Below are positions 9,646 through 34,602 of a stretch of DNA of 39,434 bases, piece by piece (position 1 is the stretch's first letter; each line of letters opens with the position of its first letter). The notes under the pieces are model-generated. The model was given only the letters and a program-made list of their open reading frames with translations, was not told the DNA's origin and did not search any database. Source of the DNA: Candidatus Petromonas tenebris (GTDB lineage Bacteria > Bacillota > Clostridia > Peptostreptococcales > Caminicellaceae). Made by a program: the position numbers and the translations under genes. The stretch lies in NCBI GenBank assembly GCA_014236755.1, contig JACCKY010000023.1, forward strand, positions 1 to 39,434, written 5' to 3'.

Positions 9646-9744
9646 ACAATAAGATATTTCATGAAAATTTCTTCAAATATTGTAAATATTGTTAGCACAA
9701 AAAGAGCAAATTAGATATAAAGTATATATTATAATAGAATTGAA

Positions 9745-9822
9745 TTAATCTTGGGAATGTAACTGCTCTAATACTTTCACTTGTAGAAGTGAGAGTATTA
9801 GAGCAGTCAGTTATCGGATAAA
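9745..9822 (+). promoter_or_regulatory. Structured leader motif, copy 1 (unidentified)
   Basis: A long hairpin, CTGCTCTAATACTTTCACTT (9763-9782) paired with 9787-9806 around GTAG, has one G-U pair in 20. It is followed by CAGTTATCGGATAAA. An outer helix can form between TTAATC (9745-9750, one bulged A) and GATAA (9817-9821). AGTCAGTTATCGGATAAA and this outer helix recur at 18703-18779 in the carA leader. The motif ends just before the Shine-Dalgarno GGGGAGAG of the next gene. A possible -10 TATAAT lies at 9730-9735. I recognise no known riboswitch class. Confidence 0.55.
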
Positions 9823-9838
9823 TGGGGAGAGAAGATGT

Positions 9839-18391: not shown

Positions 18392-18412
18392 CGATATTTA
18401 ATTATCTTTATA

Positions 18413-18441
18413 AAGATAACACAAAAACAACGGTAAGTCAA
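18413..18441 (-). promoter_or_regulatory. uraA promoter
   Basis: On the minus strand, TTGACT (18441-18436), a 17-base spacer, and TATCTT (18418-18413), about 20 bases before the PyrR loop. Confidence 0.75.
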
Positions 18442-18495
18442 TAGATATTAAAATAAGTTTTTTCTTTTTGTTCTAAATTTGAAATCTTATAATTG

Positions 18496-18524
18496 TTGAC
18501 ATAACGATTTTCCTATGTTAGTAT
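18496..18524 (+). promoter_or_regulatory. carA promoter
   Basis: TTGACA (18496-18501), a 17-base spacer, and TAGTAT (18519-18524), about 30 bases before the PyrR loop and divergent from the uraA promoter. Confidence 0.8.
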
Positions 18525-18554
18525 AGATGAAACAAAACTAAAAAACTCGATATG

Positions 18555-18589
18555 ACCTTTAAGATCGGTCCCGTGAGGCCAGCAAGGTT
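18555..18589 (+). promoter_or_regulatory. PyrR-binding loop of carA
   Basis: ACCTTTAAGATCGGTC, then the loop CCGTGAGG, then CCAGCAAGGTT match the PyrR-binding consensus. It begins the carA leader, but the terminator follows only after about 215 bases, much further than in the other three pyr leaders here. Confidence 0.9.
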
Positions 18590-18702
18590 AGAAAAAAATT
18601 TTTAGGCATCTATGCATAAATATACAATATCAAGACTAGTTATGCACAAGATTAAATTTAGTTCTGCTGGAGTTTAAGACTCCACTTGAACTGTAGTTAA
18701 GC

Positions 18703-18779
18703 TTATCCAGAAACTGTAACTACTCCTTATCTTTCGCTTATAGAAGAGAGTGTGTTAGGGTAGTCAGTTATCGGATAAA
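18703..18779 (+). promoter_or_regulatory. Structured leader motif, copy 2 (unidentified)
   Basis: TTATCC (18703-18708) pairs with GGATAA (18773-18778). Inside this, AACTG pairs with CAGTT and ACTACTC with GGGTAGT. The 3' strand contains AGTCAGTTATCGGATAAA, identical to copy 1 at 9805-9822. TAACTAC can instead pair with GTAGTTA just upstream (18693-18699), giving two exclusive folds. Upstream, 18660-18692 forms a nested hairpin (AGTTC/GAACT outside TGGAGT/ACTCCA). Confidence 0.5.
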
Positions 18780-18804
18780 ATCTATATATTAAGCCGAACT
18801 CACG

Positions 18805-18844
18805 GGTAGAAGTATTCTTAAAGGATATATTCTACTCTTTTTTT
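18805..18844 (+). terminator. Attenuator terminator of carA
   Basis: GGGTAGAAGTAT pairs with ATATTCTACTC (one bulge, one G-U pair), followed by TTTTTTT, 35 bases before carA. Confidence 0.8.
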
Positions 18845-18879
18845 ATGTTCTATTTTTCTATTATGTGAGGAGGAAAAAA

Positions 18880-19935
18880 ATGAAGGGATACCTATTGTTT
18901 GAAGATGGAACCAGGTTCGAGGGAGAAATTTTTGGATATGAAAAGGAAACAGTTGGTGAAGTAGTATTTAACACAGGAATGACCGGATATCAGGAAATTT
19001 TAACAGATCCGTCCTACTATGGACAAATTGTAGTTATGACTTATCCTCTTATCGGGAACTATGGGGTAAATAGTGATGATGTCGAGTCTGAAAATCCAAA
19101 GGTTAAGGGTTTTGTAGTAAGAGAGCTTTATGAAAACTATTCTAACTGGAGAGGTAGTGAAACATTAGAAAACTATCTTTGCAAAAATAAAATAGTAGGG
19201 CTGCAAGGCGTAGATACAAGAGCTCTCACTAAGTTCCTAAGAGAGAAGGGCTCAATGGCTGGAAAAATCATAGTAGCCAAAGAGTATGATGAAAATGACA
19301 TAGAGGATATAAAAAATTTTGATAACCATAGGGCGGTAGAAAAGATAACTACAAAAAAGCCCTATACTTTAAAGCCTAAACTGACAAAGATTGCAGTGCT
19401 GGACTTTGGTATCAAACAAAACATAATCAGATCTCTATTAAAGAGAAAAGCTCAATTAATAGTTTATCCTGCCATGACTCCATCAGAAAAGATTTTAGAG
19501 GATAATCCAGATGGAATATTTTTATCTAACGGGCCTGGGGATCCCAGTGAACTTCATGAGGTTATAGAAAATATTAAGAAGTTAATAGGGAAAAAGCCTA
19601 TGTTTGGAATATGTCTAGGCCATCAGCTGATTTGTCTGGCTTTGGGAGGCAAAACCACAAAGCTTAAATATGGACATAGAGGAACAAACCATCCTGTAAA
19701 GGATCTGCTAAAGGATAGAGTTTATATAACATCTCAAAATCACGGATATGTGGTTGAAGAAGACAGTTTGGATAAAGGAGATGTAATCATAAGTCATATC
19801 AACTTGAATGATGAAAGCATAGAAGGAATAAGGCATAAAAAGCTTCCCTTATTCAGTGTACAGTTTCACCCGGAAGCATCTCCAGGACCCCAGGACACAG
19901 CTTATCTGTTCGATGAATTTATGGAAATGCTTTAA
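18880..19935 (+). CDS. carA: Carbamoyl-phosphate synthase small subunit
   Basis: This 351-residue glutaminase subunit hydrolyses glutamine and channels ammonia to CarB. The N-terminal domain (about 1-150) starts GYLLFEDGTRFEGE and contains NTGMTGYQEILTDPSY. The class-I glutamine amidotransferase domain has LSNGPGDPSE, the nucleophile Cys245 in FGICLGHQL, and the His/Glu pair in VQFHPEASPGP. I start it at ATG 18880, after GTGAGGAGG, not at the GTG inside that sequence. It is controlled by a PyrR attenuator, with an extra leader motif. It is separated from carB by 350 bases that include a MITE-like element. Confidence 0.96.
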   Translation: MKGYLLFEDGTRFEGEIFGYEKETVGEVVFNTGMTGYQEILTDPSYYGQIVVMTYPLIGNYGVNSDDVESENPKVKGFVVRELYENYSNWRGSETLENYLCKNKIVGLQGVDTRALTKFLREKGSMAGKIIVAKEYDENDIEDIKNFDNHRAVEKITTKKPYTLKPKLTKIAVLDFGIKQNIIRSLLKRKAQLIVYPAMTPSEKILEDNPDGIFLSNGPGDPSELHEVIENIKKLIGKKPMFGICLGHQLICLALGGKTTKLKYGHRGTNHPVKDLLKDRVYITSQNHGYVVEEDSLDKGDVIISHINLNDESIEGIRHKKLPLFSVQFHPEASPGPQDTAYLFDEFMEML

Positions 19936-20050
19936 TTTGTTTGGCTAAATAGTAGTAATCTGAAATATATAGGTAACAAAGTTCAAGATTTAATTTATTA
20001 GGGTTTTGAGAATTCTTCTGGCTCATGTGAAGATTAGCCTTTTTATTTAA

Positions 20051-20230
20051 GTTAATCTCTTGTGCTAGTTACTCTAACGGTATAGCTTTAAATATCCTTC
20101 AATGCTTCCTCTGAAGCGACTTTGAAGAGCTGTTTTTACCTCTAAATCTTTTCTATATAAAACAGCTCTTCTACGGAGCCTGAAGAGGTTTATTGAAGGA
20201 TATCTATAAGGAACTAGCGAGGCGAGTTAA
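20051..20230 (+). mobile_element. Palindromic MITE-like element, copy A
   Basis: Imperfect terminal inverted repeats begin TTAATCTC..GCTAGTT and end AACTAGC..GAGTTAA. Inside, about 50-bp arms (ATATCCTTCAAT, CCTCTGAAG and AGAGCTGTTTT with their complements) make one long hairpin. A closely similar copy lies inverted at 32421-32597. TTAA at both ends may be target duplication. No ORF; it separates carA from carB. Similarity extends about 60 bases further left (TTTAATTTATTAGG at about 19991), so the true boundary is uncertain. Confidence 0.75.
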
Positions 20231-20285
20231 ATTAAATTTTAAAGTTGTTCATCTATAGTATGTATTTAAAGAGAGGAGAATCAGG

Positions 20286-34389: not shown

Positions 34390-34478
34390 CGGAAAAACAA
34401 GGATAATCAAAAAAGATTAACTCTTATTTTACCTATAATTATAGCTAAAATAAGAAGTTATCTTTCATGACTTAAAAT

Positions 34479-34602
34479 CCCCTGTCCTTTTACCTGAGAG
34501 TTTCACCAATTACTTGGCTTTCCCCTTCGGTGCTCAGCTGAGTCTCTCCAGAGGCCTGTCCAGTAACGGTCGTAACGAATACTTCCACTACCTTCGTCCA
34601 GC
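34479..34602 (-). promoter_or_regulatory. Glycine riboswitch (single aptamer)
   Basis: On the minus strand the aptamer reads GGACAGGCCTCTGGAGAG, then GCACCGAAGGGGAAAGCC, then GAAACTCTCAGGTAAAAGG and ACAGG, which are the hallmark segments of glycine riboswitch aptamers. Only one full aptamer is present; the 40 bases upstream (34563-34602, starting GGACGAAGG) keep part of a partner aptamer, as in 'ghost-aptamer' singlets. It controls ACT-UPF0210. Whether it activates or represses cannot be decided by eye. Confidence 0.92.

Follow-up and report, generated by a model that had tools for sequence, protein, structure and literature searches.

The extra folded segment in the carA leader of Candidatus Petromonas tenebris is a copy of a dispersed two-stem repeat

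The stretch of DNA analysed here (the window, 39,434 nt of Candidatus Petromonas tenebris) carries PyrR-type leaders ahead of uraA, pyrB, pyrC and carA, with gene names taken from NCBIfam. The features of the carA leader, together with a related element elsewhere in the window, are the following:

9701-9828, forward strand: second, partly degenerate copy of the repeat described below, upstream of an ORF with a YkuD domain (model R2, 67.8 bits; Pfam for the ORF)
18496-18524, forward strand: promoter-like site of the carA leader (TTGACA, 17 nt, TAGTAT; consensus scan, 10 of 12 matches)
18552-18592, forward strand: PyrR binding loop (RF00515, 37.2 bits, below gathering; loop sequence kept in four family relatives)
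18570-18577, forward strand: CCCGTGAG, 5' half of the predicted antiterminator, within the PyrR loop
18613-18626, no strand assigned: ARG-box-like palindrome TGCATAAATATACA, candidate ArgR site (strict site in five of five family carA leaders)
18651-18774, forward strand: inserted copy of the dispersed two-stem repeat (model R1, 132 bits; model R2, 110.1 bits over 18648-18785)
18656-18702, forward strand: stem I of the repeat, limits approximate (18 pairs, 12 changed on both sides, 89.0% of cells paired)
18703-18778, forward strand: stem II of the repeat, TTATCC closing with GGATAA (23 pairs in four helices, 16 changed on both sides)
18799-18806, forward strand: CTCACGGG, 3' half of the predicted antiterminator (predicted pairing with 18570-18577, with and without the repeat)
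18804-18844, forward strand: terminator hairpin and T run (seen in the fold; same arrangement in four relatives; absent from the consensus scan)
18880-19935, forward strand: carA (NCBIfam TIGR01368, 507.9 bits)

With its order of PyrR loop, antiterminator and terminator, the carA leader resembles the PyrR attenuator RF00515 and the uraA, pyrB and pyrC leaders of the same window, whereas a 124-nt insertion in the antiterminator loop, the ARG-box-like site and a score under the gathering threshold set it apart from that family. The PyrR loop sequence GGTCCCGTGAGGCC lies at 18567-18580; the match to RF00515 starts at 18552, reaches 37.2 bits against a gathering score of 54 and extends from the true PyrR loop into stem I of the repeat, while the uraA, pyrB and pyrC leaders all score above gathering. 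The promoter-like site is weak by itself, because the region gives three such sites where 2.2 are expected. A simple terminator scan of 18400-18900 listed no terminator; a hairpin followed by seven T is nevertheless seen at 18804-18844 in the fold, and also in the relatives. An earlier note on this DNA had remarked on the long distance between loop and terminator in carA, and the alignments agree: loop and terminator are separated by about 45-70 nt ahead of uraA, pyrB and pyrC, whereas the carA terminator begins at 18804, about 215 nt beyond the end of the loop near 18590. The whole carA leader folds with a z of -3.4 relative to shuffles. Since 18620-18800 alone reaches a z of -1.4, with 18 of 200 shuffles folding as well, folding energy by itself is unconvincing, and it is the comparison across copies that convinces.

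The extra folded segment, 18651-18774, is one of at least eight copies that the genome holds of a dispersed repeat. Its limits were fixed by comparison with other copies, and the adjoining ATAAA at 18775-18779 is the flanking TTTAT on the opposite strand. When 18600-18849 was compared by blastn with 59 genomes and the own one, matches appeared at four further places of the latter (on contigs C68, C88 and C61, and at 9758-9822 of the window) and at 13 places in two genomes of another family. These matches fall within 18654-18784 and spare the PyrR loop and the terminator; one extra match of 24 nt, in genome G038, lies at the terminator end. A covariance model built from nine copies (R1, with up to eight candidates scored per genome) detected the repeat in 37 of the 393 genomes sampled from the window's order and in none of the four other genomes of its family, and a second model built from 45 copies (R2) matched 50 of the 398 genomes of a phylum sample, 49 of them outside the window's order. 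In named genomes, a pattern scan that selects stretches by the 3' end of the repeat gave at least 113 of them, including ones from Clostridium magnum, C. ljungdahlii, C. ragsdalei, C. carboxidivorans, Tepidibacter and Anaerosolibacter, and one Tepidibacter plasmid carries a copy. A few pattern matches in genomes outside Bacillota are probably due to chance; some of these (Pantoea, Bacteroidales, Paceibacterota) show no repeat by eye.

The genes around the repeat differ from copy to copy. Among 93 distinct copies placed with a simple ORF caller, 33 lie in a tandem context on the same strand and 20 in one on the opposite strand, 13 are convergent, 12 divergent, 3 lie inside ORFs and 12 at locus edges; no consistent set of genes lies downstream of the repeat on its strand. 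A phage-borne element was also considered: the exact 3' pattern occurs in eight viral contigs, probably by chance, as no model match among them is better than an E of 0.35, and two repeat copies found no match in phage records. As for known RNA families, in 18400-18900 nothing but PyrR exceeds chance-level Rfam matches (E up to 10), and at 20 further repeat loci no family covers the repeat at gathering. A literature search, whose scope left most subscription journals outside, turned up no description that we recognised as this clostridial repeat family, which may hence have been published already.

The repeat has a conserved fold. From 95 model matches, 80 were kept (length 124-146) and 64 remained after removal of near-identical ones; alignment A5 holds 45 of these 64 rows, the other 19 having been excluded by hand as truncated or rearranged. 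Across the 45 copies, 89.8% of the cells pair, a figure favoured by the derivation of the consensus structure from the same 45 sequences, and two-sided changes occur at 28 of 41 pairs; covariation is scored at 0.362, compared with 0.162 (sd 0.007) for shuffles and no more than 0.127 for slid partners. A structure predicted solely from the window copy performs less well, with 74.8% of cells paired and a covariation of 0.269 against 0.134. Of the 2658 cells of the 64-row alignment, 2320 are still paired. The earlier note was thus right to see a distinct folded segment, which these compensatory changes resolve into two stems, and the nested hairpin that it described (AGTTC/GAACT around TGGAGT/ACTCCA) is present at its place, with a stem conserved in related copies. 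It had further proposed a two-state switch, built on two exclusive pairings of TAACTAC (18717-18723), either with GTAGTTA (18693-18699) or with GTAGTCAGTTA (18760-18770). Both pairings are possible in the carA copy, but only the one with GTAGTCAGTTA is conserved; the TAACTAC/GTAGTTA helix (at least six of seven pairs) can form in 2 of the 45 copies, and the comparison does not support the switch.

Moreover, the repeat has recurrent ends. Read on the opposite strand, copies begin with CCGAT beside TTTAT and finish with TTNAT, where N varies between copy groups. Because the named stretches had been selected by the repeat's 3' end, end statistics are given separately for them: the loci that were not preselected hold 30 distinct copies, of which 22 have the CCGA start (17 of these after TTTAT) and 8 lack it, while at the preselected loci (64 distinct copies) TTTAT precedes 55 of the 60 with that start. 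For 17 of the 30 and 42 of the 64 copies, respectively, the 3' end was called as TTNAT. At one locus that is about 96% identical between C. ljungdahlii and C. ragsdalei, presence and absence of 197 nt is precise and leaves no target duplication; a second filled and empty pair is compatible with either no duplication or one of 5 bp. By eye, some copies stand in tandem or carry modules within their hairpin loops, and truncated copies occur, too. A module of about 50 nt lies, again by eye, in the repeat hairpin loops at loci L194, L199, L207, L214, L218, L219, L224, L231 and L232, carried by copies of C. ljungdahlii, C. ragsdalei, C. magnum, C. carboxidivorans, C. sartagoforme and Anaerosolibacter.

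Movement of the repeat would presumably depend on an enzyme acting in trans; no transposase or TnpB gene was seen at the repeat, and the search for a partner or mobiliser found none. Y1 transposase genes occur in 33 of 37 repeat carriers and in 31 of 43 non-carriers, with none found in four carriers, and the 29 Y1 loci examined for repeat ends showed none (best E 0.91), nor did the RAYT-like loci of genomes G000 and G056. A REP/RAYT system was rejected, given that the own genome has two long Y1 genes and yet no repeat ends beside either, and so was a TnpB-linked element, with no TnpB matches in G000, none in G056 and two in G040. Long, RAYT-like Y1 genes are present at C13:46906 and C19:1 of G000 and on contigs C43, C124, C115, C12 and C117 of G056, and some of them have a different short repeat of AAGGGGACGGTTCT type nearby, as judged by eye.

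By its features the repeat is classed among the small structured interspersed repeats. In the passages cited, the group A repeats bcr1-bcr3 of the Bacillus cereus group are described as small, structured, interspersed and MITE-like, linked to TTTAT and often located in UTRs or between operon genes (PMC6542083, PMC3446304). The repeat shares with them the small structured interspersed unit and TTTAT at the ends and, judged by the published description, the two may be related; unlike bcr1-bcr3, which the same source describes as confined to B. cereus sensu lato (PMC6542083), it occurs in many clostridial genera and in 49 phylum-sample genomes outside the window's order. No B. cereus-group plasmid was matched by blastn of three copies from the family's wider range. 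IS200/IS605-type elements, among them group A IStrons and non-autonomous derivatives, are reported to insert by a T-rich pentanucleotide (TTTAT, TTGAT) without target duplication and to have subterminal palindromes (PMC4227781, in the part cited). A T-rich pentanucleotide beside one end and subterminal palindromes are likewise found here, and of the two filled and empty pairs one lacks a duplication and the other fits either none or one of 5 bp. In contrast to these elements, no transposase or TnpB was seen with the repeat, a Y1 partner with the same ends was not found, and its 3' end is TTNAT, unlike the TCAG that group A IStrons reportedly have. Pneumococcal BOX elements, compared by description, are modular structured repeats as well, reported with terminal inverted repeats and target duplications in the text cited (PMC3049150); the one clean junction of the repeat shows no target duplication.

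It is conceivable, albeit rather unlikely, that the repeat represents a phylum-wide mobile class of its own, consisting of a two-stem unit with loop modules, whose enzyme would read TTNAT at both ends, which would fold out of the way, and of which some copies would have been recruited. The flanking ATAA could then perhaps pair with the element's own TTATCC, and the repeat would tolerate or even prefer sites such as the loops of regulatory RNAs. The reading that we consider probable is the following: the extra segment is a small non-coding repeat of mobile type, inserted in this lineage beside TTTAT into an otherwise ordinary PyrR attenuator, and arginine control, if there is any, most likely runs via ArgR.

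This reading draws on the carA leaders of relatives. Four family relatives from four genera share the leader with its PyrR loop, ARG-box-like palindrome and terminator and have nothing repeat-like in between; consistently, model R2 found no repeat at their carA loci. The set comprises the four other family genomes as drawn, all from other genera and with CarA 76-78% identical, and the filled and empty comparison for the carA copy is one between genera and not between near-identical genomes.

PyrR attenuation works by a competition between RNA structures, in which PyrR on its loop frees the 3' half of the antiterminator for the full terminator. In the carA leader, as in the four relatives, the pairing of CCCGTGAG with CTCACGGG and the base of the terminator, which uses the GGG of CTCACGGG, are predicted to exclude each other. 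The predicted probability of the CCCGTGAG/CTCACGGG pairing is at least 0.96 for seven of eight pairs, with or without the repeat. In the relatives, the antiterminator pairing is predicted at 0.95 or above as long as the terminator has yet to be made; for the full leader the prediction stays high for most pairs at L095 and L098 but drops to 0.05-0.81 at L097 and to 0.25-0.36 at L096. The starts of the two antiterminator halves are 91-113 nt apart in the four relatives and 229 nt in the window, or 105 nt once the repeat is removed by script, and the repeat copy sits in the loop between both halves. With PyrR bound, the loop would retain CCCGTGAG and the terminator would form; with PyrR absent, CCCGTGAG would pair with CTCACGGG, removing the GGG from the terminator base, and carA would be read. 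The repeat would meanwhile fold into its two compact stems inside the antiterminator loop, out of the way. Because it folds on itself between the antiterminator halves, both states of the PyrR switch should stay possible, and we infer that it is harmless to the PyrR response of the leader. A precedent could be the BOX element between the two T-boxes of the pneumococcal trp leader, a leader that according to the text cited has remained regulatory (PMC3049150).

An alternative option is that the segment began as a mobile repeat and was later recruited at carA, e.g., for slowing RNA polymerase or timing the PyrR switch. In the carA copy, 37 of 41 pairs persist in spite of 12 substitutions in paired columns and two compensations are two-sided, a retention slightly above random decay; its P of about 0.05-0.06 is, however, not significant, the copies at L277 and at 9701-9828 of the window do equally well or better in the same test, and the relatives manage without a repeat, so recruitment appears improbable to us. 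Even less is to be said for the family being small-RNA genes, or another class of RNA multiplied by duplication, and not a transposable element. Conserved stems would suit such genes, as would the excess of G-U over A-C among the non-Watson-Crick cells (205 versus 120, or 157 versus 118 without one nearly constant G-U pair), which is mild as an indication of strandedness; the precise presence and absence between near-identical loci, the sharp ends with a target-like pentamer, the tandem and nested copies and the mixed gene context make this explanation very improbable. Scarcely credible is the idea that a second riboswitch-like sensor, responding, e.g., to arginine or nucleotides, acts on carA alongside PyrR: the conserved folding, the location between loop and terminator and the two pathways fed by carA speak for it, but we reject it, along with any switch specific to carA, because copies are dispersed over many unrelated loci in both orientations to genes, because the carA leaders of the four relatives lack the segment, an observation that the earlier note itself had named as counting against its proposal, and because the alternative helix is not conserved; nor does any Rfam family cover the segment.

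The suggestion of a second, arginine-related signal on carA is plausible nonetheless, not through the folded segment but through the DNA site adjoining the repeat, 18613-18626. Judged by the usual ARG-box consensus, a strict site is present at the corresponding place in all five family carA leaders, with frequencies of at most 0.002 each in first-order shuffles, and an ArgR family protein is encoded in all five genomes. The genome-wide count shows nothing alone, because the own genome has four strict TGNATAWWTATNCA sites and the backward control five. One of the three other strict sites precedes an ORF whose beginning, by eye, resembles argininosuccinate lyase, and the two remaining ones have no obvious arginine gene adjoining. 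The strict site was not found in the argG upstream regions; sites with one mismatch occur upstream of argG in all five genomes. Judged by sequence, the ARG-box-like site is a likelier arginine signal than the folded segment, and arginine control of carA, if any, would most likely be exerted by ArgR binding at this palindrome.

Further repeats are found nearby. The gap between carA and carB (19936-20285 of the window) measures about 350 nt, compared with about 15-110 nt in the four relatives (from alignment blocks), and contains another repeat, unlike the first and about 190 bp long, at about 20048-20235. At least 34 other near-full copies of it are present in the own genome at 91-96% identity (36 candidates scored), and a search of 19 other genomes yielded no more than three short matches (27-32 nt), spread over two of them. 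Two of the 190-bp copies lie within about 10 nt of hairpin-repeat copies (own genome, C88:17152-17487 and C90:9767-10100). A third short motif, TTATTAGGRTTTTGAGAATYCTTCTGGCTCATGTGAAGA, was seen by eye at about 19990-20035 of the window and at locus L267, upstream of an argH-like ORF. Elsewhere in the window, 34472-34561 on the reverse strand holds a glycine riboswitch aptamer (64.2 bits, above the Rfam gathering score).

Taken as a whole, the lead of a second riboswitch gives way to a picture that can be tested, namely a probably working attenuator with a self-folding repeat inside and a likely ArgR site adjoining. A structured repeat that is present in roughly one in ten of the sampled genomes (37 of 393 and 50 of 398) and that Rfam did not match where tested can be mistaken for a regulatory RNA, and the models R1 and R2, together with the rules for the ends, allow its copies to be filtered from surveys of leaders. 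In this context, C. ljungdahlii and C. ragsdalei are of special interest, where the presence of the repeat differs between orthologous loci and the question of its mobiliser could be put to the test.
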